64,000 nt of DNA from Amycolatopsis tolypomycina (GTDB lineage Bacteria; Actinomycetota; Actinomycetes; Mycobacteriales; Pseudonocardiaceae): contig NZ_FNSO01000004.1 in assembly GCF_900105945.1 (NCBI RefSeq), forward strand, positions 3,720,001 to 3,784,000. Reading direction: 5' to 3'. The notes under the pieces were generated by a model. The model was not told where the DNA came from and searched no databases. It saw only the letters and a list, made by a program, of their open reading frames with translations. Within the stretch, counting starts at the first letter, position 1. Every line of letters begins with the position of its first letter. The position numbers and the translations under genes were made by a program. Positions 33,301 through 60,539 of this stretch are shown in pieces.

Positions 33301-34290
33301 GTGAACGTCGCCGGTGGGGTGCTGCCGGTCGCCGCCGGGGTGGCCCTTCTCGTGTTCGCCGTGCGGATGGCGCGTGAACCGCGGCGGCTGAGCAACGCCG
33401 TCTGGCTCGGGGTCGCGCTGCTGCTGACCGCGCTGTGGCTGCTGCGCACGGCATGGCACCTGGAGTGGCTGACCCCGGTGCTGCTGGGCCTGCTCGGCGT
33501 CGTGGCGGTGCTCGTCGCCCTGGTGCTGCCGGCCGCGCTGATCGCCAACGGCGTGCGGATGTGGCGGCGGGAAGGGCGCAGCGCCGGGAACCTGCTTTCG
33601 CTCGGGCTCGGCGCCGGGCTGGTCACGCTGGAAGCCCTCGCGTTCGCGCCGCTCGGCCGGTGGGGTTCGGCCGTCGTGGCCATCGCCGCCGTGCTGGCCG
33701 GCTACTTCGGGTTCCTGTTCCTGTCGCTGCTGGTCTACTCCGTGGTGTACAGCAGGCTGGGCCGCCGCGGCGGGTTCGACGCGATCATCGTGCTCGGCTG
33801 CGGCCTGGACGGCGACCGCGTACCGCCGCTGCTCGCCGGGCGGCTCGACCGCGCGATCCGGCTCCACACCCGGGAGGCGACGCCGCCGCTGCTGGTCGTG
33901 TCCGGTGGGCGCGGGCCCGGCGAGTCGGTCAGCGAAGCCGAGGCGATGCACGGCTACCTGCGCGAGCGCGGCGTGCCGGACGAGCTGATCCGGCGTGAGG
34001 ACCAGGCACGCACAACCGAGGAGAACCTCCGGTTCTCGGCCGGGCTCCTGCCCGCCGACGCGCGGCGCGTGGTCGCCGTGACCAGCAACTACCACGTGTT
34101 CCGGGCGGCGGTGGAGTGCCGGCGGCTGGGCCTGCCGTTCCACGCGACGGGCTCGCCGACGGCCAGCTACTTCCTGCCGAGCGCGTTGCTCCGCGAGTTC
34201 GCCGCCCTGATCCTGCACTACCGCCGGACGACGATCGCGGCGTGCGTCCTGATCATCGGCGCCGGCGTCGCGGTGACGATCTTCGCTTAG
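33301..34290 (+). CDS. YdcF/SanA-like DUF218 membrane protein
   Basis: A 329-residue protein. About four hydrophobic helices in the first 140 residues precede a DUF218 domain: DAIIVLGCGLDGDRVPPLLA, VVSGGRGPGE and SNYHVFRA. DUF218 proteins (SanA, ElyC, YdcF) act in envelope or cell-wall precursor metabolism, with substrate unknown. A final hydrophobic helix lies at the C-terminus. GTG 33301 with GGGAGG upstream is chosen. The stop overlaps the stop of the convergent glycosyltransferase by 4 bp. Confidence 0.83.
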   Translation: MNVAGGVLPVAAGVALLVFAVRMAREPRRLSNAVWLGVALLLTALWLLRTAWHLEWLTPVLLGLLGVVAVLVALVLPAALIANGVRMWRREGRSAGNLLSLGLGAGLVTLEALAFAPLGRWGSAVVAIAAVLAGYFGFLFLSLLVYSVVYSRLGRRGGFDAIIVLGCGLDGDRVPPLLAGRLDRAIRLHTREATPPLLVVSGGRGPGESVSEAEAMHGYLRERGVPDELIRREDQARTTEENLRFSAGLLPADARRVVAVTSNYHVFRAAVECRRLGLPFHATGSPTASYFLPSALLREFAALILHYRRTTIAACVLIIGAGVAVTIFA

Positions 34291-35504
34291 CCCCGGCGCA
34301 GCACCGAGCAGGCGTGGGCAACGCCGTCCTCGGCGCGCAGCCGGGCGCCCACGTACTGCGCGCCGCGTCGGAAGAGCGGGTTCTCCGTCAGCTCCCGCAG
34401 CCGCGCGGTGAGCGAGCCGGTGTCGAGGTGCGCGAGCGGCAGCGGTTTCGGGCCGGCGCTCAGCCGCGCCACGCGGGCGCCCCAGTATGGCTGGTCGGAG
34501 AAGACCGGGCAGACCAGCGTGGGCACGCCGGCCCGCAGCCCGGCCGCGGTGGTGCCGGCGCCGCCGTGGTGGACGACGGCGGCGGTGCGCGGGAACAGCC
34601 ACGCGTGCGGGACGTCGGCGACGGTCAGCAGGTCGTCGGTGTCCGGGCCGTCGGCGGCGAGCAGGCCCCGCAGCCCGGCGCGGCGCAGCGCGGCCCGGAC
34701 GACGGCGAAGGTCGCCTCCGCTTCGGCCGGGCGCATGCTGCCGAAGCCGACGTAGACGGGCGGCGGTCCCGCGGCGAGGAAGTCCCGCAGCCGCGGGTCC
34801 GGACGCCAGGGGCCGGGCTCGAGGAACCAGTACCCGGTGACGTGCGCGCGATCCGGCCAGTCGGGCGGCCGCGGCACGACGGATGTGGAGAAACCGCACA
34901 GCACGGTCGACCTTCGCCGAGGCCCGCGGCGGCCGGCTGCGGGCAGGCCGAGCGTCTCGGCGCGCCAGCGGTCGACGTCGGGGCGCAGGAGCTGCCAGGC
35001 GAGCGCGTCGACGGCGGTGAAGCTCAGCTGCCGCCCCCATGGGCCGAGCCGGGCGGCCGCGGGCAGCAGCGGGTGCGCGAAGGCCCGCGTCGGCAGGCTG
35101 GGCTGGTAGTGCAGTTCGACGTCGGGGACGCCGAGGTGGGCACCCAGGTGCGCGCCGAGGAAGCCGAGGGTCGGCGCGAGCACGAGATCGGCCCCGGCGG
35201 CACCGGCGTGGACGTCGGCGAGGAGCCGGTCGAGCACCGGGCGAAGGGCGGCCCGCAGCCCGGAGAGGAAGGTGCGCCGCCGCCCGGAGGTCCACGCCCG
35301 CCCGGCGGCCGACCCGAGGACGGCGGCGGGATCCGCGGAGAGGGGCGCGAAGGCGAGGCCGTGGGTTTCGACGAGGGCTCGGAAGGCGGGAGCGGCGAGG
35401 ACGCGGACACGATCACCATCGGCGGCGAGGCCACGCCCGAGGGCGACGCAGGGCTGGACGTCGCCACGCGAGCCGGGCGCGATGATGACCACCTGGCGGC
35501 TCAT
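34287..35504 (-). CDS. UGT/MGT-type (GT1) glycosyltransferase
   Basis: A 405-residue GT-B enzyme. The N-terminal APGSRGDVQP motif and C-terminal HHGGAGTTAAGLRAGVP donor-binding motif are typical of GT1 transferases of macrolide, flavonoid, sterol and lipid acceptors. Further on is FSDQPYWGARV. The ATG at 35504 is chosen because the conserved sequence begins there. It follows the SDR and Ag85-like genes on the same strand, after a 58-bp gap. The acceptor may be the lipid made by this island or a small molecule. Confidence 0.87.
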   Translation of the reverse strand: MSRQVVIIAPGSRGDVQPCVALGRGLAADGDRVRVLAAPAFRALVETHGLAFAPLSADPAAVLGSAAGRAWTSGRRRTFLSGLRAALRPVLDRLLADVHAGAAGADLVLAPTLGFLGAHLGAHLGVPDVELHYQPSLPTRAFAHPLLPAAARLGPWGRQLSFTAVDALAWQLLRPDVDRWRAETLGLPAAGRRGPRRRSTVLCGFSTSVVPRPPDWPDRAHVTGYWFLEPGPWRPDPRLRDFLAAGPPPVYVGFGSMRPAEAEATFAVVRAALRRAGLRGLLAADGPDTDDLLTVADVPHAWLFPRTAAVVHHGGAGTTAAGLRAGVPTLVCPVFSDQPYWGARVARLSAGPKPLPLAHLDTGSLTARLRELTENPLFRRGAQYVGARLRAEDGVAHACSVLRRG

Positions 35505-35562
35505 CGCGCCGACCTCGGCCGAGCGACACCCGGCGTCCGGCACTGCCCGGCGACCTGCCCGC

Positions 35563-36393
35563 TCACCGCTTTGCCGCCGTCAGGCGGTAGCGCAGCCGGA
35601 AGGGCAGGCTCGCCAGCAGCGCCGCCAGGCGGGCGTCCGGACCCACCAGGTACCTCGGTGCCGGGCGGCGGGCCGTCAGCGCGCGGACCACCGTCTCCGC
35701 CGCCTTTCGCGGTGGCACTCCCGTCCGGGCCGACCGGGCCGCGCTGTGCTCGGCCGCCGACAGTTGGGCTCCGTACCTCTCCAGGGCCGCCGGGGACAGG
35801 CTTGCGCGGACCTCCTCCGCCGCCGCCCGGGCTCGGGGCCAGATCGGGGTTGCCACCGCTCCCGGCTCGACCAGCACCACGCGGATTCCCTCCGGGGCCA
35901 GCTCCGCGCGCAGGCTGTCGGTCAACCCCACCAGCGCGAACTTCGACGTGTGGTACGGCCCGACCATCGGGCCCGCGATCCGGCCGCCGATCGAGCCGAT
36001 CGTCACCACCCGCGCGGATTCCGTGCGCCGCAGCGCCGGCAGCATCGCGCGCGTCACCGCCAGCTGACCCGTCACGTTCACCTCCAGCTGCTCCCGGAAC
36101 GCCTCCAGCGGCACGTGTTCGAGAGGCCCCGGGCGTGCGAGGCCCGCGTTGTTCACCAGGCCCCGCACCGGTCCCGCCGCCGCCACGCGCCGGCCGCACC
36201 GCTCGATCGACTCCGGGTCGCGCAGGTCCATCCGCAGCACCGTGACCGCCTCGCCGTACGCGCGCGAGAGTTCGGCTTCGTCGTCGTCCGTGCGGACGCT
36301 CGCCCACACGTGGGCGCCCCGGCGGACCAGCTCCGCCACGCAGGCGCGGCCGATGCCGCCCGCCGCGCCGGTGACCACATAGGACGGTGTCAC
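35563..36393 (-). CDS. Short-chain dehydrogenase/reductase, possible beta-keto lipid reductase
   Basis: A 276-residue SDR. VTGAAGGIG is the nucleotide motif, NNAG follows, and Ser-Tyr-Lys appear in GSIGG and YHTSK. The GTG at 36393 overlaps the stop of the Ag85-like gene by 4 bp. Beside a Pks13-like synthase, its simplest role would be to reduce the beta-keto product to a beta-hydroxy ester, as CmrA (Rv2509) does in mycolate synthesis; that is inference by context. SDR sequence alone does not fix the substrate. Confidence 0.87.
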   Translation of the reverse strand: MTPSYVVTGAAGGIGRACVAELVRRGAHVWASVRTDDDEAELSRAYGEAVTVLRMDLRDPESIERCGRRVAAAGPVRGLVNNAGLARPGPLEHVPLEAFREQLEVNVTGQLAVTRAMLPALRRTESARVVTIGSIGGRIAGPMVGPYHTSKFALVGLTDSLRAELAPEGIRVVLVEPGAVATPIWPRARAAAEEVRASLSPAALERYGAQLSAAEHSAARSARTGVPPRKAAETVVRALTARRPAPRYLVGPDARLAALLASLPFRLRYRLTAAKR

Positions 36394-37385
36394 GACGCCA
36401 GCACCTGCAGCATCCGGGGCCACGTCTTGTGCAGCTGCTCCTGCCAGTACGCCCACTGGTGCGTGCCCGGACCGTAGAGGTCCGCCGTCACCGGGACGCC
36501 GAGGTCGCGCAGCCGGCCGGCCATCGCGGCGGTCTGGGCACCGCACAGGAACTCCAGCAGCATCGCCCCGGGCAGGACGTCGATCGGGAGCCGGGCGTCC
36601 AGCGGGCCCGGCAGCCCGTTGCCCGCCGAGAGGTACAGCTCCGTGCCGCGCAGGCGATCGGCGTTCACCAGCGGGTCGTGCGCCTCCCAGCGCGCGGCTT
36701 CCCGGCGCCGGTCACCCCACAGGGCCTCCGGGTCGAGTCGGGCCGAGCCGACGATCGCGCTCGTCAGCAGTTCGCCGGTGGGGCCGGCCGGGTTGAGGTT
36801 GCCGCTGAAGGACGCGGCGTAGCGGAACACGCCCGGCTGCCGCGCGGCGAGCTCGAACGCGCCGTACCCGCCGAGGGACAGGCCGGCGACCGCGCGGCGG
36901 CCGTTCCCGCGGTAGCCGCGGTCGATCAGCTGCGGGAGCTCGACGGCGGTGAAGGTCTCCCACTGGTTGAGCGCGAGGTCCTTGCCGTAGTTCCACCAGT
37001 CGGTGAAGAAGCCCGCCGTTCCGGCGCCGGGCATCACGACCAGGACACCGGCGTCGTCGGCGAGCCGCCGGACGTCGGTGTTGGCGCTCCAGCCGCGGTA
37101 GTCCTGCAGCCGGGTTTCGCCGGCCAGCAGGTAGACCGCGGGCCAGCTCCGCTCGGCCCAGTTGCGCGGCAGGATCAGCCGGACCATCGCGTACGCCCCG
37201 ACGCCGGCCGAGCGCACGGTCAGGTCCAGCACCCGCGCGTCACCGTCCACAGTGGTCTGGGCGACGACGTGCGAGCCGTCGTCGGCCCGGGCGTCCGGGA
37301 CGGCGGTGGCGGCGAAAGCGGGCGTGCCGGGCAGCGCGCACACCGCGGCGGCCAGGGCCGCACACCACCTCACGAAAGGGCGCAT
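36390..37385 (-). CDS. Secreted antigen-85-like esterase/acyltransferase
   Basis: A 331-residue exported alpha/beta-hydrolase with a signal peptide ending AFAA near residue 26. It tracks antigen 85 mycolyltransferases block by block: DYRGWSANT, VVMPGAG, FTDWW, ETFTAVELPQ, GLSLGG with Ser170, FRYAASFSGNL, GNGLP, LLEFL with the likely Glu, and GTHQWAYWQEQL with the His. Ag85 moves mycolic acids onto trehalose or arabinogalactan; homologues in organisms without mycolates are esterases of unclear role. The ATG has AAAGGAA upstream. The gene is first in an operon with the SDR. Confidence 0.85.
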   Translation of the reverse strand: MRPFVRWCAALAAAVCALPGTPAFAATAVPDARADDGSHVVAQTTVDGDARVLDLTVRSAGVGAYAMVRLILPRNWAERSWPAVYLLAGETRLQDYRGWSANTDVRRLADDAGVLVVMPGAGTAGFFTDWWNYGKDLALNQWETFTAVELPQLIDRGYRGNGRRAVAGLSLGGYGAFELAARQPGVFRYAASFSGNLNPAGPTGELLTSAIVGSARLDPEALWGDRRREAARWEAHDPLVNADRLRGTELYLSAGNGLPGPLDARLPIDVLPGAMLLEFLCGAQTAAMAGRLRDLGVPVTADLYGPGTHQWAYWQEQLHKTWPRMLQVLAS

Positions 37386-37773
37386 GTGTTTCCTTTCCCG
37401 GTCGGTTCCAGGTGCGGCCACGCTAAAGGAAAACCGTCCGGGACAGCAATTGTCCTGTCCACGATGTGAGCAGACAATGTGAATGACAGGAAAACAAACT
37501 CCCCCACAAGGGTGAGGCTCTGGTCGCGCAGAGTGACTGGACTCGGACGCCCGTCCCACAACCCGGCACCGAACTCGCCAGTAACCTGCGATCCAGCAGC
37601 TCACACGCTGTACATGGGAATGTTTACGCCGTCTTGAGGTGCTTCCGGCAACCGATTTCCCGGCGTAGCCTTCGCCGTGCCGCCGGGTTCGGACGTCACT
37701 CGACTGTCCCCGGCGAAGGGTTCCAGCGCAGGGGCCGCACCTCCGTCGAGAAATGCTCCCGGAAGGGTTCTCC
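37386..37773. other. Divergent control region of the lipid island
   Basis: A 388-base gap between the Ag85-like gene (minus) and the secreted-protein/FAAL/PKS operon (plus). GGACA (37441-37445) and TGTCC (37451-37455) form a dyad 56 bp upstream of the Ag85-like start. No gene and no convincing consensus promoter were seen, although it must hold both promoters. Confidence 0.4.
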
Positions 37774-38445
37774 ATGGCCACCCGAATTCGTTTTCCCCCG
37801 CTCCTGCTGGTCGCCGCGGCCGCCGTGGCCGGCATTTCGCCCGCAAAACCGGCCGCGGCGCTCCCCGTGCCGAGCCCGCCCGCCGTGCCCCCGGCCGCCC
37901 TGCTGCCTGCCGAAGCGATCCCCGGCCCGCCCGCGGCCCGCGCCGGGTTCGACGTCGCCACGGCACTGTCCACATCGTCACCGTCCACATCGGATCGCAG
38001 CGACGCAGGAGAGTGCGCCGACGTCGTCCACGGCCGGCTGCTGCGCCCCGGCAACGCGACCGGCCAGGGCTTCCAGGCAGCCGTCCCGGGCGGGCAGCTG
38101 TCCGAGCTCGTCGCCCGCACCCCGCACCCGCCCGGCCTCACCGCCTGGGCCGCGCAGGCGCGCCGCTGTGCCCGCGTCACCGTCGACGACCAGGACATCC
38201 CGACGGTGTCGACCACCACCGTCGGCACCCCGCCCGCCGTTCCCGGCGCGGAAACCCTGTCGTATGAGCAGGTCCTGACCCTGCCCGGCCAGCCCGCCGG
38301 GCTGCCCGGCCTGCGCCTGCGCACCGTCGCCATCGCCGCCGGCGGCGTGCTGGTCCTGCTCCGCGACGCCGGAGCCACCGACCTCGACCTCGACGCCCTG
38401 GCCGTCGCCGCGTGGCAGCACGCGGCCCCGCGGCTGGGCCGCTAG
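37774..38445 (+). CDS. Secreted protein of unknown function, first gene of the FAAL-PKS operon
   Basis: A 223-residue protein. A signal peptide (MATRIRFPP, then LLLVAAAAVAGI) is followed by a Pro/Ala-rich stretch (about 25-65). The folded part starts near GECADVVHG and has two Cys (in GECAD and RRCARV) that could form a disulfide, ending LAVAAWQHAAPRLG. It faintly resembles PknH-type sensor domains, but I cannot assign a family. It ends 12 bp before the fatty acyl-AMP ligase, with GGAAGGG before its ATG. Extracytoplasmic binding of the lipid product would fit its position (inference). Confidence 0.7.
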   Translation: MATRIRFPPLLLVAAAAVAGISPAKPAAALPVPSPPAVPPAALLPAEAIPGPPAARAGFDVATALSTSSPSTSDRSDAGECADVVHGRLLRPGNATGQGFQAAVPGGQLSELVARTPHPPGLTAWAAQARRCARVTVDDQDIPTVSTTTVGTPPAVPGAETLSYEQVLTLPGQPAGLPGLRLRTVAIAAGGVLVLLRDAGATDLDLDALAVAAWQHAAPRLGR

Positions 38446-38457
38446 CAAGGAGAACCC

Positions 38458-40167
38458 ATGTCCCAGGAGAACTTCCCGGCGGTGGGCGGCGACACCCTGA
38501 CCGCGTGCCTGCGCCACTGGGCGGCGACCACCCCCGAGGCCCCCGCCCTCACCTTCGCCGACTTCGCCGCCGATCCCGCCGGGCGGCGGCGCACGCTCAC
38601 CTGGCGGCAGCTGGCCGAGCGCGTCGACGCCGCCGCGGGCGCGCTGGCCGTGTCGCCGGGCGACCGGGTCGCCGTGCTCTGCCCGCAGGGCCCGGACTAC
38701 GTCGTCGGGTTCCTGGCCGCGATCGCCGCGGGCGCGATCGCGGTGCCGCTGTTCGACCCCGGCCTGCCGGGGCACGCGGGACGGCTCGCCGCGGTCCTCG
38801 CCGACTGCACGCCGGCCGCCGTCGTCACCACCGCGGCGGCCGAGCGGGACGTCGAGGAGTTCGTCGGCCGGGACGTCGCCGTCGTCGCGGTGGACCGGCC
38901 GGAGCCGGCGCGGTCGTGGCCGGCGCCCGCCGCGGCCCCGGACGACGTCGCGTACCTGCAGTACACCTCCGGCTCCACCCGCAGCCCGGCCGGGGTGGTG
39001 CTGACCCACGCGAACGTGCTCGCCAACGTCACCCAGGCGGTGCGCGGCCTCGGCCTCGACCCGGCCGCGGCCACCACGGTCTCGTGGCTGCCCTTGTTCC
39101 ACGACATGGGGCTCGTCCTCGGCCTCGTCACGCCGCTGGCACTGGGCCTGCGGTCGGTCCTGATGGACCCGCTCGCGTTCGTCGAGCGGCCGGTCCGCTG
39201 GCTGGAACTGCTCGGCGACCACGCGGGCAGCTGGAGCGCGGCCCCCAACTTCGCCTTCCACTACTGCGCGAGCCGGATCCGCGAGGCCGACCGGGCCCGG
39301 CTGCGGCTCGGCCGCGTCGCCGCGATCGTCAACGGCGCCGAACCGATCAACCCGGACGTCCTCGACCGGTTCCACACGGCCTTCGCCGCGGCCGGCTACC
39401 GGCCGGAGCTGACGCGCCCGGCGTACGGCCTCGCCGAGGCCACCGTCTTCGTCACCACCGGCCCCGCCGCGGTCCCGCGCGTCACCACCTTCGACCGCGA
39501 CGCCCTCGCCACGGGCAAGGCGCGGCCGTCCGCCGACGGCGTCCGGCTGGTGGCGTGCGGTGCGCCGGCCGGGCAGCTCGTCGCGCTCGTCGACCCGGAC
39601 ACGGCGGCCGTGCTGCCCGACGGCTCGGTCGGCGAGATCTGGGTGCACGGGCCCAACGTCGGCGCCGGGTACTGGCGGAAACCCCTGGAGAGCACCGAAA
39701 CCTTCGGCGCCCGGCTGCTCGGCAGCCTGCCCGAAGGGCCGTGGCTGCGGACCGGCGACCTCGGCGTCCGCCACGACGGCGAGCTCTACATCGCGGGCCG
39801 GATCAAGGACCTGATCATCGTCGACGGGCGCAACCACTACCCGCAGGACGTCGAAGCGACCGCCGCGTCGGCCGATCCCGCGATCCGCCCCGGCAGCGTC
39901 GCCGCGTTCGCCGTCGCGGGCACCGACACCGAAGCCGTCGTCGTGGTCGCCGAGCACCGCGGCCACGCCGACCTGGCCGAACCCGCCGAACGCGCGCTCG
40001 CCGCGGCGATCCGGCGGCTGATCTCCGACGCGCACGGGCTCGCGCTGCGGGACGTGCTGCTCGTGCCGCCCGGGCGGGTGCCGCGGACGTCCAGCGGCAA
40101 GATCGCGCGCGGTGCCTGCCGCGACCGCTACCTCGCCGGCGACTACGGAAAGGCCCTCGCGCGATGA
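38458..40167 (+). CDS. Fatty acyl-AMP ligase (FAAL), FadD32-like
   Basis: A 569-residue adenylate-forming enzyme. QYTSGSTRSPAGV is the P-loop-like A3 motif, YGLAEATVFV is A5, RTGDLG is A7, and GRIKDLIIVDGRNHYPQDVE is the FAAL-type A8 region. FAALs activate a fatty acid as acyl-AMP and load it on an ACP, not CoA. The near-C-terminal SSGKIARG contains the catalytic Lys. It overlaps the PKS ATG by 4 bp, matching the fadD32-pks13 arrangement, so it should load the synthase's N-terminal ACP. Confidence 0.92.
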   Translation: MSQENFPAVGGDTLTACLRHWAATTPEAPALTFADFAADPAGRRRTLTWRQLAERVDAAAGALAVSPGDRVAVLCPQGPDYVVGFLAAIAAGAIAVPLFDPGLPGHAGRLAAVLADCTPAAVVTTAAAERDVEEFVGRDVAVVAVDRPEPARSWPAPAAAPDDVAYLQYTSGSTRSPAGVVLTHANVLANVTQAVRGLGLDPAAATTVSWLPLFHDMGLVLGLVTPLALGLRSVLMDPLAFVERPVRWLELLGDHAGSWSAAPNFAFHYCASRIREADRARLRLGRVAAIVNGAEPINPDVLDRFHTAFAAAGYRPELTRPAYGLAEATVFVTTGPAAVPRVTTFDRDALATGKARPSADGVRLVACGAPAGQLVALVDPDTAAVLPDGSVGEIWVHGPNVGAGYWRKPLESTETFGARLLGSLPEGPWLRTGDLGVRHDGELYIAGRIKDLIIVDGRNHYPQDVEATAASADPAIRPGSVAAFAVAGTDTEAVVVVAEHRGHADLAEPAERALAAAIRRLISDAHGLALRDVLLVPPGRVPRTSSGKIARGACRDRYLAGDYGKALAR

Positions 40168-43100
40168 CCGACACCCTGCGCCGCTGGCTCGTGGCCACCA
40201 TCGCCGAGCACACCGGCGTCACCCCCGAGCCAGACCACCCGCTCGGCGACTACGGCCTGTCCTCCCGCCAGGCCGTCGGCATCGCCGCCGACCTCGAAGA
40301 ACGGCTCGGCAGGCGGCTACCGCCGACGCTGCTGTGGGAGAGCCCGACCATCGACCACCTCGTCCGCAGCCTCACCGGCGCCGACGAGCCCGAGGTCCGG
40401 CCGGGCACCGACCGCCGCCGGACCGACCCGGTCGCCGTCGTCGGCCTCGGCTGCCGGTTCCCCGGCGCGGACGGGCCCGGCGAGTTCTGGGACCTGCTGC
40501 GGACCGGGCGGGACGCCGTCCGGACCGCGCCACCCGGCCGCTGGGACGCCGACGCGGCGCCGGTGCTCGGCGGGTTCCTCGACGACGTCGCCGGGTTCGA
40601 CGCCGAGCACTTCGGCATCACCCCGCGCGAAGCGGCGACGATGGACCCCCAGCAGCGGATGCTCCTGGAGGTGACGTGGGCGGCGCTGGAGCACGCCGGC
40701 GTCGCGCCGTCGTCGCTGCGCGGCAGCCGGACCGGCGTGTTCACCGGGATCGCGACCCACGACTACGGCCACCTCACGATGACCGGCGGCGCGCCGGACC
40801 TGTGGACGGCGACGGGCGCGGCGGGCAGCATCGCGGCCAACCGGCTGTCGTACGTCTACGACCTGCGCGGGCCGAGCGTGGCGGTGGACACGGCGTGCTC
40901 GTCTTCGCTGGTCGCGGTGCACCACGCGGTGCGCGCCCTGCGCGACGGCGACGCGGACCTGGCGCTGGCGGCCGGGGTGAACCTGATGCTGCTGCCGGGC
41001 CCGACGGCGGCGTTCGCGGCAGCGGGCCTGCTCGCCGCCGACGGCCGCTGCAAGACGTTCTCGGCGGCCGCGGACGGCATCGCGCGAGCCGAGGGCTGCG
41101 GCGTGGTGGTGCTGAAGCGGCTGGCGGACGCCGAGTGCGACGGCGACCGCGTGCTCGCGGTGATCCGGTCGTCGGCGGTCAACTCCGACGGGCGGTCGAA
41201 CGGCCTGGCCGCGCCCAACCCGCCGGCGCAGCGGGCGATGCTGCGGGACGCCTACCGCAGCCTTGATCCGTCCACTGTGGACTATGTGGAGGCTCACGGA
41301 ACGGGAACGCTGCTCGGCGACCCGATCGAGGCACGCGCACTCGGCGCGGTCCTGGGCACGGGCCGCCGGCCGAACGAGCCCCTGCTGATCGGCTCGGTGA
41401 AGACGAACATCGCCCACGCCGAGGCGGCGGCCGGGATAGCGGGGCTGATCAAGGTGGTGCTGTCGATGCAGCACGGCACGCTCCCGCCCCAGCTGCACTT
41501 CGCGGCCCCGAACCCGCACATCCCGTTCGGCGAGCTGGGGTTGCGGGTGGTCACGGAGCCGACGCCGTGGCCGCGCCGCAGCGGGCGCGCGGTCGCGGGG
41601 GTGTCGGCTTTCGGGTTCGGCGGGACGAACGCGCACGTGGTGCTGGAGGAGGCGGCGGCGCCGGGTGGGCGCTCGTTCAGCGGGGGCCGGGCGGGGACGC
41701 CGGGAGCGCGGGGCGGCGGGCTTCGGGCCGACCAGCCGGTGCGGTCGAGCGGGGCTCCGGGGCGGGCCGGCGGCTCGGAGCGCGCCGGTCACTCCGGCGA
41801 GGTCCGGACGGCGCGGCCGAGCGGCACTCCGGACCGCACCGAGCTCCGGACGGCTCTGCCAAGCGGCACGACTGACCGCACCGAGGTCCGGATCGGGCTT
41901 CTCTCCGCGCGCACCCACGACCGCCTCATCGAGCGGGCCGCGCAGCTCGCCGGTTGGCTCGATTCGCCCGCCGGGCGGCGCAGTTCGCCGGCCGATGTCA
42001 CCCACACCCTCTTCCGGCGCGACGAAGGCGGCCCGCACCGCGCCGCCGTCGTCGCCGGGGACCACCGGGAACTGGCCGCCTTGCTGCGGGCCGTCGCCCA
42101 GCAAGAAGATCCGTTGCCCGCCGGTGCGCTCACCGGCTCCGCCGTCGGTGGGGAGGGGCCCGTCTTCGTGTTCTCCGGGCACGGGTCCCAATGGGCTGGA
42201 ATGGGCCGACGGCTGCTCGCCTCCGAACCCGCCTTCGCCGCGCAGGTCGACAAGCTCGGCGACTCCTTCGCCGAACACGGCGGACGCTCGCTCCGCTCGC
42301 TGCTCACCGGCGCCGCTCCCCTCTCCCTCGCCGACACGCAACTGGCCATCTTCGGGACGCAGGTCGCGCTCGCCGCGCGGTGGGAGGCGCTCGGCGTCCG
42401 GCCCGCCGCCGTCCTCGGGCACTCGCTCGGCTCCGCGGCCGCCGCCGTCACCTGCGGGGCGCTGACCGCCGATGAGGCCGTCCACCTCGTCGCCACCCGT
42501 GCCCGGCTGCTCGGCGCACTCGGCCCCGGCGGTGCGATGGCCGCCGTCGAACTGGCCGCGGACGAACTCGACGGCCGGCCCGGCGTCGAACTCGCCGTCG
42601 ACTCCGCGCCCGGGCAGGTCACCGTCGCCGGGGATGCCGATGCGCTCGATCGGCTCGTCGCCGAACTGACCGCCGCCGGGCGGGGTGCGCGGCGGCTGCC
42701 GGTCGGGGTCGCCGGGCATTCGGCCGGCGTCGAACCTGTCCTCGGCCCCCTGCGGGACGCCCTCGCCGAACTGGGCGGACGGCGGCCGCTGGTGCCCTGG
42801 TACGACACCGTGCTGACCGACCCGCGCGAACTGCCGGACTTCGACGCCCGCTACTGGGCCGCGCACCTGCGCCGCCCGGTGCGGTTCCGGCAGGCCGTCG
42901 CCGCGGCGGCCGCGGACGGGCACCGCGTGTTCGTCGAGGTGTCGCCGCACCCGATCCTGCGGGGTTCGCTGGCCCGGACGCTCGAAGCCGCCGGGATCGC
43001 CGACGCCGTCGTGACCGGCACCCTGCGCCGCGGCCAGGACGAGGTCCGGGCCTTCGCCGCGGCCGCCGCCACCCTGTACTGCACCGGCACCCGCATCACC

Positions 43101-44516
43101 CTCGCCGCGCCGGACGACGACGCCCGCGTCACCGACGTGCCGCCGATGCCCTGGCGCCACGAACGGCACTGGTACACCGACACCGAACCGAGCACCCCCG
43201 AGCCCGCGCCGAGCCACGCCGACCAGCCCCGCACCGGGAGAACGCTCGCCGACATCGTCGCCGCGATCATGGGCCTCTCCCCCGACCGCCTCGACCCCGA
43301 CGTCCCGCTCGTCGAACTCGGGCTCGACTCCCTCATGGCCAACCGGATCCGCGACGCCGTCCGCCGGGAGCTCGGCACCGAACCCGACCCCGCCGCCGTC
43401 CTCCGCGGTGCCACCCTCGCCGACCTCAACCGCGATCTCGCCCCGCGCGGCGACGAACCGCCCGCCCGCGGCCGGGCCTGGGACGCCGCCGACCGGCTCG
43501 TCCTGCGGCTCTGGCGGCAGCACACCGGCACCGACGCGGGCCCGCACACCCGCCTCGGCGCCACCGGCGAACCCCACCACGTCGCGCGGCTGCTCGCCGC
43601 CGGGCTCACCGCCGAGCTCGACACCCCCGTCGATCCGGCCGACCTGCTCCGGCACGACTCCCTCGCCGCCGTCGCCGACGTCGCACGAGCCCTGCTCGAC
43701 ACCCGCGAAGAACGCGGGCCCGTGCACGTCCTCAAGCCGGGCGACGCCGGAACCGCGCCGCTGCTGCTGTTCCACCCCGGCGGCAGCACGTGCACCGTCT
43801 ACCGGCCGCTGCTGGACCGGCTGCCCGCCGGCGTGCCCTGCGCCGGCTTCGAACGCGTCCCCGGCGCCGGCCTCGAAGACCGCGTCGAACAGCTCCTGCC
43901 GCTGGTCCGCGCCCGGCAGCCGCACGGGCCCTACCGCCTGGCCGGCTGGTCCTTCGGCGGCGCCCTCGCCTACGGCGTCGCCACCCGGCTCGCCGACGGG
44001 GGCGAACCGGTCGAACTCGTCGCGCTGATCGACACCATGCTGCCGCTGCCCGAGCCGGACCTCGATCCCCGCGCGTCGTCGGCCCGCCGGTTCCTGCGCT
44101 TCACCGGCTACGTCGAAGGCACCTACGGCCGGACCGTCCGGCTCGGCCACGACGAACTCGCGCCCCTGCCCGAAGAAGAACAGATCGACCTCACCATGCG
44201 GCGGGTCGCCGAAGCGGGCTTGCTGAGCCCCGGCGTGCTGCGCCACCAGCGGGAGTCCTTTTTGGACACCCTGGCCGCGGAACGCGCGACGCCGCGGCCC
44301 TACGCCGGCCGCGTGGTGCTGTACCGGGCGACCGAGCCGTACGCCGCCGGGCTCGCGATGGAACCGCGCTATTCCCGCACCGACCTCGCGGCAGGCTGGG
44401 CCGAGCTGTGCCCGGCGCTGGAGATCGTCCCGGTGGCCGCGCACCACCTGTCGGTCGTCGACCCGCCGCACGTCGACGTCGTCGCGCGGCACCTCGCGGA
44501 CCTGCTGTGGCCGTGA
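40164..44516 (+). CDS. Pks13-architecture polyketide synthase (ACP-KS-AT-ACP-TE)
   Basis: A 1450-residue synthase. An N-terminal ACP (LGDYGLSSRQ, pantetheine Ser about 34), KS (Cys245 in DTACSSS; EAHGTGT; NIAHAEA), AT (Ser754 in GHSLGS), second ACP (Ser1056 in GLDSLMAN) and thioesterase (Ser1263 in GWSFGG) occur in the Pks13 order. No KR, DH or ER is present. It should condense a FAAL-loaded acyl chain with a carboxyacyl unit to an alpha-branched beta-keto ester, released or transferred by the TE. The AT shows VAGHS where HAFH or YASH is usual, so extender choice is unclear. A repetitive linker lies at 497-575. Pks13 itself is longer (about 1730). Confidence 0.9.
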   Translation: MTDTLRRWLVATIAEHTGVTPEPDHPLGDYGLSSRQAVGIAADLEERLGRRLPPTLLWESPTIDHLVRSLTGADEPEVRPGTDRRRTDPVAVVGLGCRFPGADGPGEFWDLLRTGRDAVRTAPPGRWDADAAPVLGGFLDDVAGFDAEHFGITPREAATMDPQQRMLLEVTWAALEHAGVAPSSLRGSRTGVFTGIATHDYGHLTMTGGAPDLWTATGAAGSIAANRLSYVYDLRGPSVAVDTACSSSLVAVHHAVRALRDGDADLALAAGVNLMLLPGPTAAFAAAGLLAADGRCKTFSAAADGIARAEGCGVVVLKRLADAECDGDRVLAVIRSSAVNSDGRSNGLAAPNPPAQRAMLRDAYRSLDPSTVDYVEAHGTGTLLGDPIEARALGAVLGTGRRPNEPLLIGSVKTNIAHAEAAAGIAGLIKVVLSMQHGTLPPQLHFAAPNPHIPFGELGLRVVTEPTPWPRRSGRAVAGVSAFGFGGTNAHVVLEEAAAPGGRSFSGGRAGTPGARGGGLRADQPVRSSGAPGRAGGSERAGHSGEVRTARPSGTPDRTELRTALPSGTTDRTEVRIGLLSARTHDRLIERAAQLAGWLDSPAGRRSSPADVTHTLFRRDEGGPHRAAVVAGDHRELAALLRAVAQQEDPLPAGALTGSAVGGEGPVFVFSGHGSQWAGMGRRLLASEPAFAAQVDKLGDSFAEHGGRSLRSLLTGAAPLSLADTQLAIFGTQVALAARWEALGVRPAAVLGHSLGSAAAAVTCGALTADEAVHLVATRARLLGALGPGGAMAAVELAADELDGRPGVELAVDSAPGQVTVAGDADALDRLVAELTAAGRGARRLPVGVAGHSAGVEPVLGPLRDALAELGGRRPLVPWYDTVLTDPRELPDFDARYWAAHLRRPVRFRQAVAAAAADGHRVFVEVSPHPILRGSLARTLEAAGIADAVVTGTLRRGQDEVRAFAAAAATLYCTGTRITLAAPDDDARVTDVPPMPWRHERHWYTDTEPSTPEPAPSHADQPRTGRTLADIVAAIMGLSPDRLDPDVPLVELGLDSLMANRIRDAVRRELGTEPDPAAVLRGATLADLNRDLAPRGDEPPARGRAWDAADRLVLRLWRQHTGTDAGPHTRLGATGEPHHVARLLAAGLTAELDTPVDPADLLRHDSLAAVADVARALLDTREERGPVHVLKPGDAGTAPLLLFHPGGSTCTVYRPLLDRLPAGVPCAGFERVPGAGLEDRVEQLLPLVRARQPHGPYRLAGWSFGGALAYGVATRLADGGEPVELVALIDTMLPLPEPDLDPRASSARRFLRFTGYVEGTYGRTVRLGHDELAPLPEEEQIDLTMRRVAEAGLLSPGVLRHQRESFLDTLAAERATPRPYAGRVVLYRATEPYAAGLAMEPRYSRTDLAAGWAELCPALEIVPVAAHHLSVVDPPHVDVVARHLADLLWP

Positions 44517-45970
44517 CGCGGGCGGGCGTCCGGGCGTGGCCGCCGCTGGCCGTGCTCGGCGCCGGCCTCCTCCTGGTCGCCGTGGACGCGACCGTGCTGC
44601 ACGTGGCCCTGCCCGACCTCGTCCGGCAGCTGCGCCCCGGCGCGGCCGCCCAGGTGTGGATCGTGGCGATCTACCCGCTCACCGCGGCGCCGCTGCTCCT
44701 GCCGTGCGGCACGCTCGGCGACCGCTTCGGACGGCGGCGGGTGCTCGTCACCGGCTACGCGGTGTTCGGCGTCGCGTCGCTGGGCTGCGCGCTCGCCCCC
44801 GGCGTCCCGGCCCTGCTCGCCGCCCGCGCGGCACTCGGCGTCGGCGGCGCGCTGATCATGCCCGTGACGATGGCGCTGCTGCGGGACCTGTTCCCGGACC
44901 GGCACCGGCGGCGCACGGCGATCGCGGTCTGCAGCGGCATCGCCGGGGCCGGTTCGGTGTTCGGGCCGGTCCTCGGCGGGCTGCTGGTGGAGGCGTGGGG
45001 CTGGCGGGCGACGTTCCTGGTCAACCCGCCGGTGATCCTGGCCGCCGTGGGGGCGGCGCTGAGGTGGCTGCCGCGGAGCCTGCCCGGCCGGGAACCGTGG
45101 GACGCGCTCGGCGCCGCGCTCGCGGCGGGCGGCGTGCTCGGGATCGCCCTCGCCGCCGGGCCGTCGGGGGGCGGCTTCGGGGCGGGGGCGGCCGGGTGCG
45201 TCCTGCTCGCGCTGTTCGTCCGCCGCCAGCGCCGGGCGCGCACTCCCCTGCTGGACCTCACGTTGTTCCGGCGGCCGGGCGTGCCGGGCGCGGTCGGCGG
45301 GGTGCTGCTGGTGATGAGCACGCTGGTCGGGCTCGGCCTGCTGCTCGCCCAGTACCTCCAGGTGGTGCTCGGCCTCTCCCCGACCGCCGCGGCGGCGCGG
45401 CTGCTGCTCGTGCTCGGCGCCTCGGCGGCGGGCAGCGTGGGGGCCCCGGCGCTGCTGGAGCGTTTCGGCAACGCCCGGGTCCGCACGGCCGGGTTCGCCC
45501 TGGCGGCGGCCGCACTGGCCATCCCGGCGGCCGGCGGGCTGGCGTCGCCGTGGTGGCTGGGTGCCGCACTGGCCGGCTCGGGCCTGGGCATGGCTCTCGC
45601 CCTGACGTCGAGCACGGACACGCTCCTGTCGGCCGCCCCGGCCGACCGGGCGGGCGGTGCGGCCGCGGTCGAGAAGACCGGGTACGAGCTGGGCGCGGGC
45701 CTGGGCACGACGGCGTTCGGTTCGCTGGCCGCCACGGTCTACGCGGCGCACCTGGTGCTCCCGCCCGGCATCCCGGAGGCGGCGGCCCGGCTGGCGTCGG
45801 CCGGGCCGGCGCAGGCGGAAGCGGCGGCGCACGGCCTGGCGGCGGCCCCCGAGCTGCTCGCGGCGGCCCGGGCGGCCTGCACCACAAGCGTGCAGGCCGC
45901 CATGGCGGTCGCTGCCGGGCTTTTCGTCGTTGCGGCGCTGGCGGTTGTTCGTCGTCGCCCGGCCGTATAG
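44513..45970 (+). CDS. MFS drug/lipid exporter (DHA2-like, 14-TM type)
   Basis: A 485-residue major facilitator with about 12-14 hydrophobic helices. GDRFGRRRVL is the signature A loop between helices 2 and 3, and GPVLGGLLVE is the antiporter motif C. It starts at GTG 44513, overlapping the PKS stop by 4 bp (GTG 44507 is the alternative). It is the natural exporter candidate for the PKS product, replacing the RND transporter MmpL3 of mycolate systems. Ends 12 bp from the convergent photolyase; a small CGTATA/TATACG dyad lies at 45964-45981. Confidence 0.88.
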   Translation: MTRAGVRAWPPLAVLGAGLLLVAVDATVLHVALPDLVRQLRPGAAAQVWIVAIYPLTAAPLLLPCGTLGDRFGRRRVLVTGYAVFGVASLGCALAPGVPALLAARAALGVGGALIMPVTMALLRDLFPDRHRRRTAIAVCSGIAGAGSVFGPVLGGLLVEAWGWRATFLVNPPVILAAVGAALRWLPRSLPGREPWDALGAALAAGGVLGIALAAGPSGGGFGAGAAGCVLLALFVRRQRRARTPLLDLTLFRRPGVPGAVGGVLLVMSTLVGLGLLLAQYLQVVLGLSPTAAAARLLLVLGASAAGSVGAPALLERFGNARVRTAGFALAAAALAIPAAGGLASPWWLGAALAGSGLGMALALTSSTDTLLSAAPADRAGGAAAVEKTGYELGAGLGTTAFGSLAATVYAAHLVLPPGIPEAAARLASAGPAQAEAAAHGLAAAPELLAAARAACTTSVQAAMAVAAGLFVVAALAVVRRRPAV

Positions 45971-54687: not shown

Positions 54688-56622
54688 TCACGGCACCGGC
54701 GCGAACCCCGCCGGGCGGGCGGTGAACGTGCCGCGGCCCTGGGTGCGGCTCCGCAGCCGGCTTGCGTAGCCGAACAGCTCCGCCACCGGGACCGTCGCCG
54801 TCACCTCCGCCGCGGGTGGCCGCACCGATGAGCCGGCCACGCGCCCCCGGCGGGCCGCCAGGTCGCCGAGCACTCCGCCGACCGCGTCGGACGGGACCGT
54901 CACCACCACCTCGGCCACCGGCTCGAGCAGGCGAAGCACGCACTCGCGCAGCGCCTGCCGCAGGCCGAGCAGGCCTGCCGTGCGGAACGCCAGGTCCGAC
55001 GAGTCCTTCGGGTGCGTTGCCCCGTCGGTCAGCGTCACGCGCAGGCCCGTCACCGGGTGGCCGCCCAGCGGTCCGGCGGCCAGCGCGTCCCGGCAGCCGG
55101 CCTCGACCGCGCGGACGTACTCGCGCGGTACCCGGCCGCCGACGATCGCCGAGGTGAACTCGAAGCCCTCGGCCGCCGGGGTGACGTCGAGGACCACGTG
55201 GGCGAACTGGCCCGCGCCGCCGTCCTGCTTGACGTGGCGGTAGACCAGCCCGGTCACCCCGCCGACCACCGTTTCGCGGTACGCCACCGACGGGCGGCCC
55301 ACCACGACTTCGAGGCCGCGGTCCCGCCGCAGCTTCTCCACCGCCACCTCCAGGTGCAGCTCGCCCAGCCCGGACAGCACCGTCTGCCCGGTCTCCGGGT
55401 CGACCCGCACGACCAGCGACGGGTCCTCCTCGGCCAGCCGCGCCAGTGCCACCGCGAGCCGGTCGGCGTCGCGCCGGGCCTCGACCGCCACCGAGACCAC
55501 CGGGTCCGCCGTCACCGGCGGCTCCAGCAGCACCGGGTCGCCCGGCGCGCAGAGCGTGGCGCCGACGCGCGCCGCCTTCGGCCCGGCCACCGCGACGATG
55601 TCGCCGGCCACCGCACTGTCCACTTCGGAACAGCGGTCGGCCTGGACGCGCAGCACACGGGCGATGCGCTCGGGGCGTCCCGCGTCGCTCACCTGGTCTC
55701 CCTTCCGCAGCGTTCCCGAGTACACCCGCAGGTACGTCAGCCGTCCCGTGGCCGTCGTGGCGACCTTGAACACCAGCGCGGCCGGCGGCGCCGCCGGGTC
55801 GGCGGGCCGGTCGGGCCGCACCGGCGGGACGTCGGCCGGCGACGGCAGGTACGCGACGACGGCGTCGAGCAGCGGCTCGATCCCGCGGTCGCGGTAGGCC
55901 GCCCCGCACAGCACGACGAGCCCGGCGCCGCTGAGCGTCAGCTCCCGCAGCGCCTTCTCCAGCGTCTCCGCCGAAACCGTGCCGGTGGCGCAGAACTCGT
56001 CGAGCGCCACCGGGTGCAGCTCGGCGACGGCCTCCGCCAGCACGCGACGCCGCCGCCGAGCCTCCGCCGAGGCGTCCACCGGCAGGTGCACCAGGTCGAC
56101 GACGCCGGTGAAGCCGTCCTCGCGCCCGATCGGCAGCTGCACGACCAGCGGGGCCGGGTGCAGCCGCGCCCGGATCGAGGCGACGGCGGCGTCGAGGTCG
56201 GCGCCCGCGCGGTCGAGCTTGTTGACGAACGCGATGCGCGGCACGCCGTGCCGGTCGGCCTGCCGCCACACGGTTTCGCTCTGCGGCTCGACCCCGGCGA
56301 CGGCGTCGAACACCGCGACGGCGCCGTCGAGCACCCGCAGCGACCGCTCGACCTCGGCGGTGAAGTCGACGTGGCCGGGCGTGTCGATGAGGGTGAGCCG
56401 GTGGCCGGCCCACTCGCAGCTGACGGCCGCGGCGAAGATGGTGATGCCGCGGTCGCGTTCCTGCGGGTCGAAGTCGGTGACGGTCGTGCCGTCGTGCACC
56501 TCGCCGGTCTTGTGGGTGGCGCCGGTGCGGTGCAGGATCCGTTCGGTGACGGTGGTCTTGCCCGCGTCGACGTGGGCGAGGATGCCCAGGTTGCGGACGG
56601 TGGTCAGGGGTCGGGTGCGCAC
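54688..56622 (-). CDS. EF-G-like translational GTPase paralogue
   Basis: A 644-residue GTPase with AHVDAGKTT (G1), a DTPGHVDF G3 and NKLD (G4), plus QERDRGITI (switch I). Domains II-V follow, ending [18 protein letters not shown] as in EF-G, not TetM-like. It is shorter than housekeeping EF-G (about 700), and str-operon neighbours are absent, so it is a paralogue. Possible roles are ribosome recycling, rescue or protection from a drug. GTG 56622 is chosen for AAGGAC about 8 bases upstream. A leader ORF with a hairpin lies upstream, suggesting translation-coupled control. Confidence 0.85.
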
Positions 56623-56664
56623 AGCCTTGTCCTTTGTGGACGAAGTGGTCAGGACGGCGCGATT

Positions 56665-56694
56665 CCCCGTGACAGCGGGATGGGCGTCACGGGG
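56665..56694 (-). promoter_or_regulatory. Hairpin overlapping the leader-peptide stop codon
   Basis: Reading the minus strand, CCCCGTGA (56694-56687), which holds the leader's last codon and its TGA stop, pairs perfectly with TCACGGGG (56672-56665) around a 14-base loop. A ribosome at the stop would melt it. It lies 43 bases upstream of the EF-G-like start. Confidence 0.5.
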
Positions 56695-56788
56695 TCCGGT
56701 GCGAGCCGCGCGGCAGGCACCGGACACCCGGGGACACCAGGATCACCTCGGACCGCGACCGGGGAGCGACGGCGACGCGGTGACGCAT
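56687..56788 (-). CDS. Candidate 33-residue leader peptide upstream of the EF-G-like gene
   Basis: A short ORF with its own RBS (GGGAG about 6 bases before ATG 56788), followed by a TGA at 56689-56687. The product begins [15 protein letters not shown] and ends RGSHRTP; it is Arg-rich with no family resemblance. It lies about 36 nucleotides after the predicted transcription start and 65 bases before the EF-G-like gene. Leader peptides that sense ribosome stalling are known for ribosomal-resistance genes such as tet(M) and erm. Whether this is translated is not shown by sequence. Confidence 0.4.
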
Positions 56789-56882: not shown

Positions 56883-59800
56883 CTACGACGTGAGCTTCGC
56901 AGCCACGTTGTACGCCTCCACCAGCAGTTTCGCGTTCGGCACCCGGCGCCGCGGCTCGACGCGGACCGTGCGGGTCTCCCCCGGCAGCAACCAGAAGTAG
57001 TTGTCGCCGTAGCGGGTGGGCAACACGCGGTCGGTGCCGTTGCGCTCCCGCAGCGACAGCCGGATCATCGCCGCGACCGTCCTCCCGTCGTTGCGGACAG
57101 TCGCGGTGTAGGCGTCGCCGTCCGGGCGCCACGTCGTGGTCAGCCGGGCCCCGGGGAGCTGGTTGAGCGCGCGCATCGCGGTGTCCGTGCGGTAGCGCCA
57201 GTACGTGTTCTCCGACAGCACCGCGCCGCCCTCGCCGGTCAGGGTCAGCCGGAGCAGGTGCAGGTCGGGCAGGCCGGCGTCGAACGGGACGGCGAACGCG
57301 GCCGCCGCCGACACCGGGGCCACGTCGAGCTGCTGCTGCCGGGCCGGGCCGAGCGCCGCCCCGTCCAGGCCGTGCAGCCGGGCGGTGACGGTCACGCCGG
57401 TCAGCGCGCCCGGCGTGTGGTTGACCACCCGCACCTGCCACGTCGTCAGGTCGGCCTGGACGTGCCGGGCTTCGCAGCCCTTGCGCGCGCCGTAGTAGCT
57501 GCCGTTGACGTCGAGGTCGTAGTCGTAGGTCTGCCAGACCGTGCTGTGCCAGGCAGGGTGCGACATCCACAGCAGCACGCCGGTGGCGTCGTTCCCCAGT
57601 TTCGCGTTCCACGCCTCGAAGATCGCGCGCATGCTCTCGTAGTTGACGAACTGTGCCTTGCGGCAGAACTCGGCCAGGCTGGTCGACGGCGCGAGCCGGG
57701 CGTCGATCGCGGCCAGGTAGCCCTGCGGGGACTGGTTGCCGTTGGTGGACCAGTCGTGCAGGAACCACGGCGCGCCGATCGGCCAGCCCGGGTCGCCGGC
57801 CCCGACCAGGTTGCGCATGCTCTCGACCACGGACACCGTCGGCAGGCCGATCTCGCTCCAGAACCCGTACTTGCCGCCCGTCGCCTCCCCGGTGAAGTAC
57901 TGCTTCGGGTCCAGCCAGCGGTAGGGGCCGTCGCCGGTGATCACGCCGCCGGCCGAATTGCCCTGGTAGAGCAGGTCGGTGCAGGTGTGGACGAGGTCGC
58001 GCAGGGCGTTGTCGAGCACCGCGGGCGGCGTGCCCTCGTTGCAGCCGAACCAGACGGCCGCGCACGCGTGGTGGCGGTAGCGCAGCACGGTGTCCTCGGC
58101 CTGGGCCAGGAAGATGTCGTGGTTGGCCGGGTCGGTCGACCAGCCGTCCCAGAACTCGTTCCACAGCAGGATGCCGTACTTGTCGCAGGCGTCGAACAGC
58201 TCCGGCCGGTAGGACGACCCGACCCAGTTGCGGATCATGGTGAAGTTCATGTCGCGGTGCATCGCGACGACGGCGTCGGCCCGCTCGGCGGGCATCCGGC
58301 GCAGCAGCTCGTCCCAGCCCCAGCTGCCGCCGCGGGCGAAGACCTTGACGCCGTTGACGAGGAACGTCAGCGGCTTCGGGCTGTTGTCGACCGACGCGAC
58401 GTCGGTCCAGGTGCCGCCGTCCTGCGACACCTGGATCTTGAAGGTCGCCGCGTAGGCGGTCTCCCAGGTCAGCACCACGCGGTCGAACGCCGTCGCGGCG
58501 CCGAGGTCGACCTGCAGCCACTGGTTGTCGCTGTATTCGGACGTCCAGCGGGTGTTCGGGTCGCCGTCGAAGGCGCGTTCCGGCGGGTTGCCGTCGGCCA
58601 CCGACTGCGCCGCCGACGGCTTGCCCTGTGCCAGGTCGGGACCCGAGCCGTTCAGCACGGACATCGTCCAGAGCGAGAAGCCCCAGCCGGTGGCGCGCTT
58701 CAGGCCCTGCATGCGGACGAACCGGGCGTTCTGCGGTGCGAGCTCGACGGTCTGCGTGGCGCGGCCGTCGGCGATGACGATCGGCAGGTCGTAGCGGTAG
58801 CCGATCTCGCGCAGGCCGATCTTGACCGTCCGCCGGTCGCTCGTGGCGGCGCCGATCGCCGCGGTCAGTGTCAGGTCGTGGAGGTTCGGGTCGCCGTAGC
58901 CGTTGGGCCACCAGAGCTTCGCGTTCTCGACCCGCTGCTTCGGGAACACGACGTCGGTGGTCTGCCCGGCCGGGACCGTCACGGTGGCCGTCAGGTTCAG
59001 CGAGCCGAACGCGGCGGTGACCCGGACGCGCTGGGCCGTCGCGGCGGCGTTGCGCACCGGCACGGTCAGGGTGACTTCGGCCGTCTTGCCGTCGGGCACC
59101 TTCGTGTCGACGCGGACGTCGCCGAGCACCGCGGCGCCGGTGGAGCGCAGGCGGACGTGGTCCCAGAGGCCGGACGCGCGGTCGCGGACCGCGGGCATCC
59201 AGTCCCAGCCGGACACGGCGAGGTAGGTCGGCGAGTTGTCGAACATCGTGCCGCCCGCGTCGACCCAGGAGCTGCCGTCGGCGCCCTTGTCGCCGGGGCT
59301 GCCGGGCCGCGGCATCGGCGAGATCTTCACCGCGAGGGCCTGCTCGCCGGTGCGGCGGAGCGCGGCGGTCACGTCGTGCGCGCCGCGGCCGAACGGGTGG
59401 CTCTGGGTGCCGATCCGCGTGCCGTTGAGCCAGATCTCGGCCTCGTGGTTGACCCCGTCGAACTCGAGCCAGACGTGCCGGCCCGGGGACGTGTCGAGGC
59501 CGCGCGGGAGGGCGAAGCGGCGGCGGTACCACCACGCGTGGCGCGAGAGGGCTTCCGGGACGTGCAGGTTGTTCATCCCGGAGACCGGATCGGGCAGCTG
59601 CCCCTGTGCCACGAGCGAGGCCAGCACGGTGCCGGGCACGGTCGCCGTCAGCCAGCCACGAGTGTCCACACCGGACGCCGAGAGTGCCTTGCCGTCGCCG
59701 GCGGGCGCCCAGTCGTCCATGGTGAGGACCCAGCCGGAGTCCAGCGGCACGGTCCCGTCGGCCGCCACGGCGAGGGCGGGCGGGGTGTCGTCCGGGCGCA

Positions 59801-60470: not shown

Positions 60471-60539
60471 GCGAACTCCGTTCTCGAAGCGGCAGCCCGG
60501 GATCCGGCGCAGGACCTGGCGGGGTGTCGCGCGGCGGGC

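Follow-up and report, generated by a model that had tools for sequence, protein, structure and literature searches.

A conserved seven-gene island with a Pks13-like condensase in Amycolatopsis tolypomycina

The stretch of DNA analysed here, hereafter the window, comprises 64,000 nucleotides of the soil bacterium Amycolatopsis tolypomycina (assembly GCF_900105945.1, contig NZ_FNSO01000004.1 [C4], positions 3720001-3784000), whose genome of 10.36 Mb is distributed over four contigs. Positions 34287-45970 of the window harbor an island of seven genes that are arranged in two divergent runs (Table 1). The minus-strand run contains the genes for a secreted Ag85/PS1-type esterase, a short-chain dehydrogenase (SDR) and a glycosyltransferase, and the plus-strand run those for a secreted protein, a fatty acyl-AMP ligase (FAAL), a polyketide synthase (PKS) related to Pks13 and an exporter of the major facilitator superfamily (MFS). 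On balance, the island is probably a Pks13-type line for the condensation, finishing and export of a lipid that joins two acyl chains. The seven genes and the single divergent region at their center had been recognized in an original prediction made from the sequence alone, and we recovered all of them with unchanged bounds; the gap between the two runs measures 388 bases. Overlaps of a few bases at the FAAL/PKS, PKS/MFS and esterase/SDR junctions, the last formed by the GTG start of the SDR and the stop of the esterase, correspond to the pattern of co-transcribed runs. A search of the 388-base divergent region for a sigma-70-like promoter retrieved none.

Table 1. Coordinates of the island, of functional sites within its synthase and of the second locus. 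Positions refer to the window unless the contig is named.
Feature	Position	Strand	Remarks
Glycosyltransferase, GT1/GT28-type, EryCIII-like C-terminal domain	34287..35504	-	Pfam PF06722, PF03033; ATG start
SDR, candidate beta-keto lipid reductase (CmrA role)	35563..36393	-	PF00106 1.5e-44; GTG start
Secreted Ag85/PS1-type acyltransferase-esterase, 331 aa	36390..37385	-	PF00756
Divergent intergenic region	37386..37773	none	388 bases separating both runs
Secreted protein, PknH-extracellular/TiME/Rv0999 fold	37774..38445	+	
FAAL, FadD32 relative	38458..40167	+	AMP-binding domain
Pks13-like condensase ACP-KS-AT-ACP-(dead carrier)-TE	40164..44516	+	Domain matches, KS and AT trees
Phosphopantetheine serine, N-terminal ACP (GLSSR, second Ser)	40263..40265	+	Aligned with GLSSR of Pks13
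KS domain	40419..41663	+	Cys at 40896-40898; both catalytic His kept
AT domain	42156..43025	+	Active site GHSLG; motif VAGH at 42708
Phosphopantetheine serine, second ACP (LGLDSL)	43329..43331	+	
Degenerate carrier-like segment before TE, without serine	43473..43718	+	PF00550 13.3 bits, cut-off 20.8
Thioesterase	43758..44516	+	PF00975; Ser at 43950-43952, Asp and His kept
MFS exporter (DHA2/EmrB-like)	44513..45970	+	PF07690; SmvA/LfrA families below cut-off
Second Pks13-like locus	C4:4222800-4239400 (L001 8811-19950, L002 1-5366)		About 460 kb from the island

The nearest solved chains of the synthase are those of Pks13 (852-855 bits), followed by DEBS (627 bits), and the whole protein scores 1229.6 bits against the Pks13 profile NF040607, which is below the curated cut-off of 2100. 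The domain order ACP-KS-AT-ACP-dead ACP-TE is the one described for Pks13 (PMC11649247), the serine-less carrier segment in front of the thioesterase being an addition to the ACP-KS-AT-ACP-TE order that had initially been noted. In Pks13 the phosphopantetheine site of the N-terminal carrier is Ser55 within GLSSR (PMC11649247). The thioesterase aligns with its Pks13 equivalent at 173 bits, and its triad is kept in comparison with four Pks13 sequences (L025, L054-L056). The catalytic residues of the ACPs, KS, AT and TE, as well as those of the esterase, are all present.

The kinship with Pks13 was investigated with a KS tree of 60 sequences (12 of 72 candidates were dropped; support values are bootstrap/SH-aLRT). 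Fifty of them form one clade (100/99), separate from ten modular KS, which comprises 11 Pks13 sequences (100/100), six island sequences (100/100), the synthase of a second locus in the same genome (see below) and relatives from Saccharopolyspora, Kutzneria, Streptomyces, Actinospica and others. Most sequences were drawn from matches to the PKS of the window itself, 120 of 7299 being listed, and the width of the clade is thus a lower bound. The island KS falls outside the Pks13 clade, and the synthase is accordingly a relative of Pks13 that lies beyond the true Pks13 group, in keeping with the mycolate-like condensation originally proposed. The AT tree of 56 sequences gives a comparable picture: 42 are united in one clade (100/99), including one modular sequence and L059, and within it 12 Pks13 sequences form a clade of their own (100/100) that excludes the island AT. 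The locus L059 (G183, family f8; positions 6517-9845 and 822-2495) stems from a genome that also has a true Pks13; it encodes an additional FAAL-linked synthase, which branches basally in the KS clade, and a further FAAL lies nearby. Of 74 orthologue sequences (20 loci plus 54 proteins, some from the same strain), 72 carry VAGH as AT motif and two carry VPGH. The 56 relatives have GAGH (34), VAAH (11), AAGH (6), VACH (3), VAGH (1) and YASH (1), the 34 Pks13 loci (L025-L057 and L060) GASH (26) and GAGH (8), and the nine modular controls HAFH in five cases and otherwise VASH, YASH, GPGH or YAYH.

The partners of the synthase point in the same direction. For the FAAL, the best NCBIfam families are all FAALs (581, 557 and 534 bits, all below cut-off) and CoA-ligase families reach at most 320 bits; the FadD32 profile NF038339 accounts for the 534 bits, its cut-off being 975. 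The nearest solved chain is 5d6j, named an acyl-CoA synthase, which we take to be FadD32 of M. smegmatis, followed by the FadD32 chains 5ey9 and 5hm3. The solved chain closest to the esterase is PS1 (6sx4, 155 bits), ahead of Ag85A/C (about 102 bits) and a tributyrin esterase (63 bits). Its Ser170, Glu278 and His309 are invariant in seven aligned sequences including the paralogue of the second locus, and they align with PS1, so that an Ag85/PS1-type enzyme as nearest solved relative coincides with a Ser-Glu-His triad. In the alignment with Ag85A the Glu columns do not coincide, the choice of the catalytic Glu in Ag85 being our assumption. A role of the esterase as transferase of mycolate-like acyl groups is predicted from these similarities. 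The genome contains a third Ag85-like secreted esterase, apparently solitary (G000:C4:3055787-3056707; L067 9207-10229), with 51% identity to the esterase of the second locus versus 43% to that of the window. The SDR matches generic subfamilies, with none above cut-off among the 25 best of 210 (KdsR, 124 of 400 bits), and the glycosyltransferase is closest to sterol 3-beta-glucosyltransferases (5xvm/5gl5, 176 bits) and then to GtfA/B/D.

When the C-terminal portion of the PKS was used to scan the named genomes, 22 loci were obtained. Of these, 20 are orthologues from Amycolatopsis (best segment 80-93% identical), one is a distant locus of the same genus (L023) and one stems from Streptomyces (L024). 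The original assignment of the host to a group with mycolate-free genera agrees with the named orthologues, which are from Amycolatopsis, a genus without mycolic acids according to a review (PMC8532670). Order and orientation of all seven genes are kept in 18 of the 20 orthologue loci (L004-L019, L021, L022), and the remaining two (L003, L020) are short contigs that start at the FAAL and retain FAAL-PKS-MFS. One further copy (L068) harbors all seven genes. The distant locus L023 shows only weak matches to FAAL, PKS, esterase and MFS in a different order. In ten loci of the orientalis/azurea group (L009-L016, L019, L021; the right flank of L009 is short), the available DNA gave no match to the flanking genes DUF218, DPRP and MarR. 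The seven-gene synteny, which is kept across distant Amycolatopsis species groups, is thus indicative of a conserved unit with the bounds 34287-45970. Among 60 genomes sampled from the genus, 30 contain the island as judged by its esterase (at least 79% identity). Searches of an open-licence library retrieved no description of the island or its product.

The second Pks13-like locus of the genome contains genes for a FAAL, a synthase, a carboxyltransferase, an Ag85-like esterase, a secretory lipase, a divergent cutinase, an MFS transporter and an MMPL protein. Its synthase of 2203 residues has the order ACP-KS-AT-DH-KR-ACP-TE and scores 1243 bits against the Pks13 profile. The nearest solved chain of the carboxyltransferase is MccB (839 bits), ahead of PccB (747 bits). 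According to PMC5187497, hexanoyl-CoA is both bound and carboxylated by MccB; where MccB has Gly161, enzymes known to take acyl-CoAs of at most four carbons have Phe, and where it has Ala423, PccB has Asp. In the locus-2 carboxylase Gly155 and Ala417 align with these two positions, i.e., Gly instead of Phe and Ala instead of Asp. At the first site, the carboxylases beside Pks13 in the 34 loci have Gly in 32 cases and Ala in two; the second site is Ala in all 34. Six carboxyltransferases were found in the genome of A. tolypomycina, five of which could be aligned (L066 did not align), and among these five the Gly/Ala pair occurs in the locus-2 enzyme only; the others are a PccB-like one with Phe/Asp, one with Phe/Ile and two that are far off. 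The original claim of a pathway without accD4 and MmpL3 therefore holds within the island and has to be revised for the genome, where a carboxylase whose pocket residues are those of AccD4/MccB is encoded about 460 kb away, together with an MMPL protein; the interpretation was right in kind regarding the kinship with Pks13, FadD32 and PS1/Ag85. An MmpL3 search of the genome gave at best 165 bits, below the cut-off of 1400, which the C. glutamicum control also failed to reach. A combination of FAAL, Pks13-like synthase, Gly/Ala carboxylase and Ag85-like esterase was also observed in the locus L058 of a 9.2 Mb genome from a different family of the order (G045, family f13).

The locus-2-type carboxylase (at least 75% identity) is present in 39 of the 60 genus genomes, namely in 29 of the 30 with the island esterase versus ten of the 30 without it (Fisher p 2.3e-7, uncorrected for descent). 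The exception to a linked supply is documented by G300, a 100% complete genome in one contig with all seven island genes, where none of the six aligned carboxyltransferases (of seven present) has the Gly/Ala pair. Moreover, crotonyl-CoA carboxylase/reductase (CCR) was found in all seven genomes searched, G300 included, and ethylmalonyl-CoA would thus be available. Taken together, the co-occurrence, the G300 exception and the distribution of CCR suggest that supply of the extender in trans by the locus-2 carboxylase is likely, but not obligatory, and that a smaller extender may be used.

The steps known from Pks13 (PMC11649247) serve as template for a mechanism of the island, in which substrates, the order of the steps from release onward, product and acceptor are proposed by analogy. 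The FAAL would form an acyl-AMP and charge the N-terminal ACP, and the second ACP would receive from the AT a 2-alkyl (carboxyacyl) unit, which the long-chain acyl-CoA carboxylase encoded in locus 2 would mainly supply. The KS would then couple the acyl-AMP-derived chain with the carboxyacyl-CoA-derived one by Claisen condensation, and the TE would release the alpha-branched beta-keto product by hydrolysis or transfer it. Because the synthase lacks DH and KR, reduction to the beta-hydroxy acyl form must come from a separate SDR, and the presence of such a gene in the neighboring run is consistent with this lack. Glycosylation by the GT1 enzyme, export via the MFS protein and transfer of the acyl moiety to an external acceptor by the secreted Ag85/PS1-type enzyme would complete the line, whose product we infer to be an alpha-branched beta-hydroxy lipid.

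Several observations weigh against this assignment. The sister relationship of island and Pks13 KS is weakly supported (84/71), and two proteins (P0064, P0065) group with the island in the AT tree and with Pks13 in the KS tree. The AT motif is no proof, as the modular Streptomyces PKS of L024 has LAGH. Motifs of the type xAGH go along with larger malonyl units, ethylmalonyl among them. The motif was not found in the review searched (PMC6164871). The locus-2 carboxylase is more similar to the PccB-like enzyme of the same genome (64%) and to the carboxylase of L058 (61%) than to AccD4 (50-52%), and its co-occurrence statistic ignores shared descent. The Gly/Ala pair missing from the aligned carboxyltransferases of G300 and the CCR of all seven genomes searched belong here as well, and the single Ag85-like match of G300 at 1e-40 is that of the island itself. 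Finally, no lipid is known from the island, and descriptions of the genus state that it lacks mycolates.

The strongest competitor is a cluster for a one-step polyketide glycolipid, where the FAAL-bound starter would be extended once with malonyl, methylmalonyl or ethylmalonyl, and the product released, reduced, glycosylated and exported by the MFS protein as a diffusible lipid, with the Ag85-like enzyme acting as deacylase or resistance factor. The lack of a carboxylase within the island, its MFS instead of an MMPL exporter, the CCR genes and the island of G300, which has no long-chain-type enzyme among its aligned carboxylases, would all suit this scenario. However, the AT is nested in the Pks13-type AT clade (100/99) with neither HAFH nor YASH, and all 18 complete orthologue loci retain a secreted PS1/Ag85-type enzyme; we regard the glycolipid cluster as a real contender, albeit a rather unlikely one. 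True mycolic acids, synthesized by both loci together in a full pathway that chemotaxonomy has missed, are improbable. FAAL, condensase, AccD4-pocket carboxylase, Ag85-like enzymes, cutinase and MMPL protein are all encoded in the genome, but no gene exceeds the Pks13 cut-off (island 1230 bits, locus 2 1243 bits) or, with the reservation of the failing control, reaches the MmpL3 level. Of the 249 genomes compared within the order, 39 have a Pks13-level gene, all from family f8, which we take as the mycolata, and none from the family of the window (f1). The genus itself has been described as lacking mycolates (PMC8532670). A degraded or silent remnant, as might be suspected from the presence of its esterase in only half of the 60 genus genomes and the absence of a product from the open-licence literature searched, is very improbable given the open frames, the catalytic residues and the synteny across distant species groups.

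The relatives of the synthase shed some light on two segments of Pks13 itself. Cryo-EM of this enzyme documented an inactive half-dehydratase (DH*) behind the AT and a non-functional ACP in front of the TE (PMC11649247). The DH* profile matches the DH of non-mycolate relatives (95.8% after removal of the first 12 residues), and the pre-TE carrier profile matches these relatives at 90.4% for Pks13 and 97.4% for the island, with controls at 0.2% or less. DH* and dead ACP of Pks13 thus appear to correspond to the DH and the pre-TE carrier of the relatives. The AT-to-ACP spacing is 203 in the window; it ranges from 202 to 288 among the 20 orthologues and is 295 in L068, the linkers that were read being filled with low-complexity sequence. 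It amounts to 307-339 in five KR-less relatives, 326-368 among the 11 Pks13 loci listed, 479 in P0063 (DH, no KR in the Pfam list) and 944-1064 among three listed DH-KR synthases with both marks. DH* is absent from the island linker, as the profile of 21 orthologues matches it at 6.6% (18 columns) and the match to DH (54%) covers only nine columns that represent the AT-end motif. The simplest reading would be an ancestor with DH and KR, of which a relic was retained in Pks13 and nothing in the island branch, the direction resting on the outgroup rooting.

Outside the island, the window encodes on the minus strand a HerA/AAA-type ATPase (9461-12562) and a CATASP (CATRA-associated) protein with a ParA-like domain (13185-14801), which are possibly a conflict or defence pair. 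The same strand carries a stand-alone EF-G-type translation GTPase of 679 residues (54688-56727) and a large exo-beta-glucosaminidase-like glycoside hydrolase with F5/8 type C domains (56883-60701).

The closest known equivalent is the Pks13-FadD32-AccD4-Ag85 system of Mycobacteriaceae. The island shares with it a FAAL, an ACP-KS-AT-ACP-(dead carrier)-TE condensase, an Ag85-type enzyme and the common KS and AT clade, and locus 2 adds an MMPL protein as well as a carboxylase that has the pocket residues of AccD4. In contrast, KS and AT of the island lie outside the Pks13 clade, the synthase reaches 1230 of 2100 bits and has no pseudo-dehydratase segment, and SDR, glycosyltransferase and MFS exporter take the place of carboxylase and MMPL protein. 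The DH-KR-bearing FAAL-type condensases, i.e., that of locus 2 and those of Saccharopolyspora, Kutzneria, Actinokineospora and Streptomyces, agree with the island in the ACP-KS-AT ... ACP-TE order and the KS clade, and the one of locus 2 is likewise accompanied by an adjacent FAAL and an Ag85-like enzyme, whereas the island synthase has neither DH nor KR. MccB, the extender carboxylase of stambomycin biosynthesis (PDB 5INF), has the same Gly and Ala pocket residues as the locus-2 carboxylase, which is however located beside a Pks13-like condensase and not a macrolide PKS.

These comparisons lead us to a tentative and still doubtful proposal: mycolate assembly might be one branch of an older and wider actinobacterial system of FAAL-type condensases that carry DH and KR in cis, long-chain acyl-CoA carboxylases, Ag85-type transferases and MMPL or MFS export. 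Amycolatopsis would run two such lines, whose alpha-branched, glycosylated wall- or sugar-bound lipids would be missed by mycolate tests, and Pks13 would have evolved from a DH-KR ancestor with the pseudo-dehydratase and the dead ACP as scars. Ag85 genes have been described as confined to mycolate-positive species (PMC6194230). In Amycolatopsis, by description free of mycolates, Ag85/PS1-type enzymes occur next to Pks13-like condensases, which renders the origin of the mycomembrane testable in soil strains. The relatives of the island suggest an origin of the tuberculosis enzyme Pks13 and offer an explanation for two unexplained pieces of this drug target.

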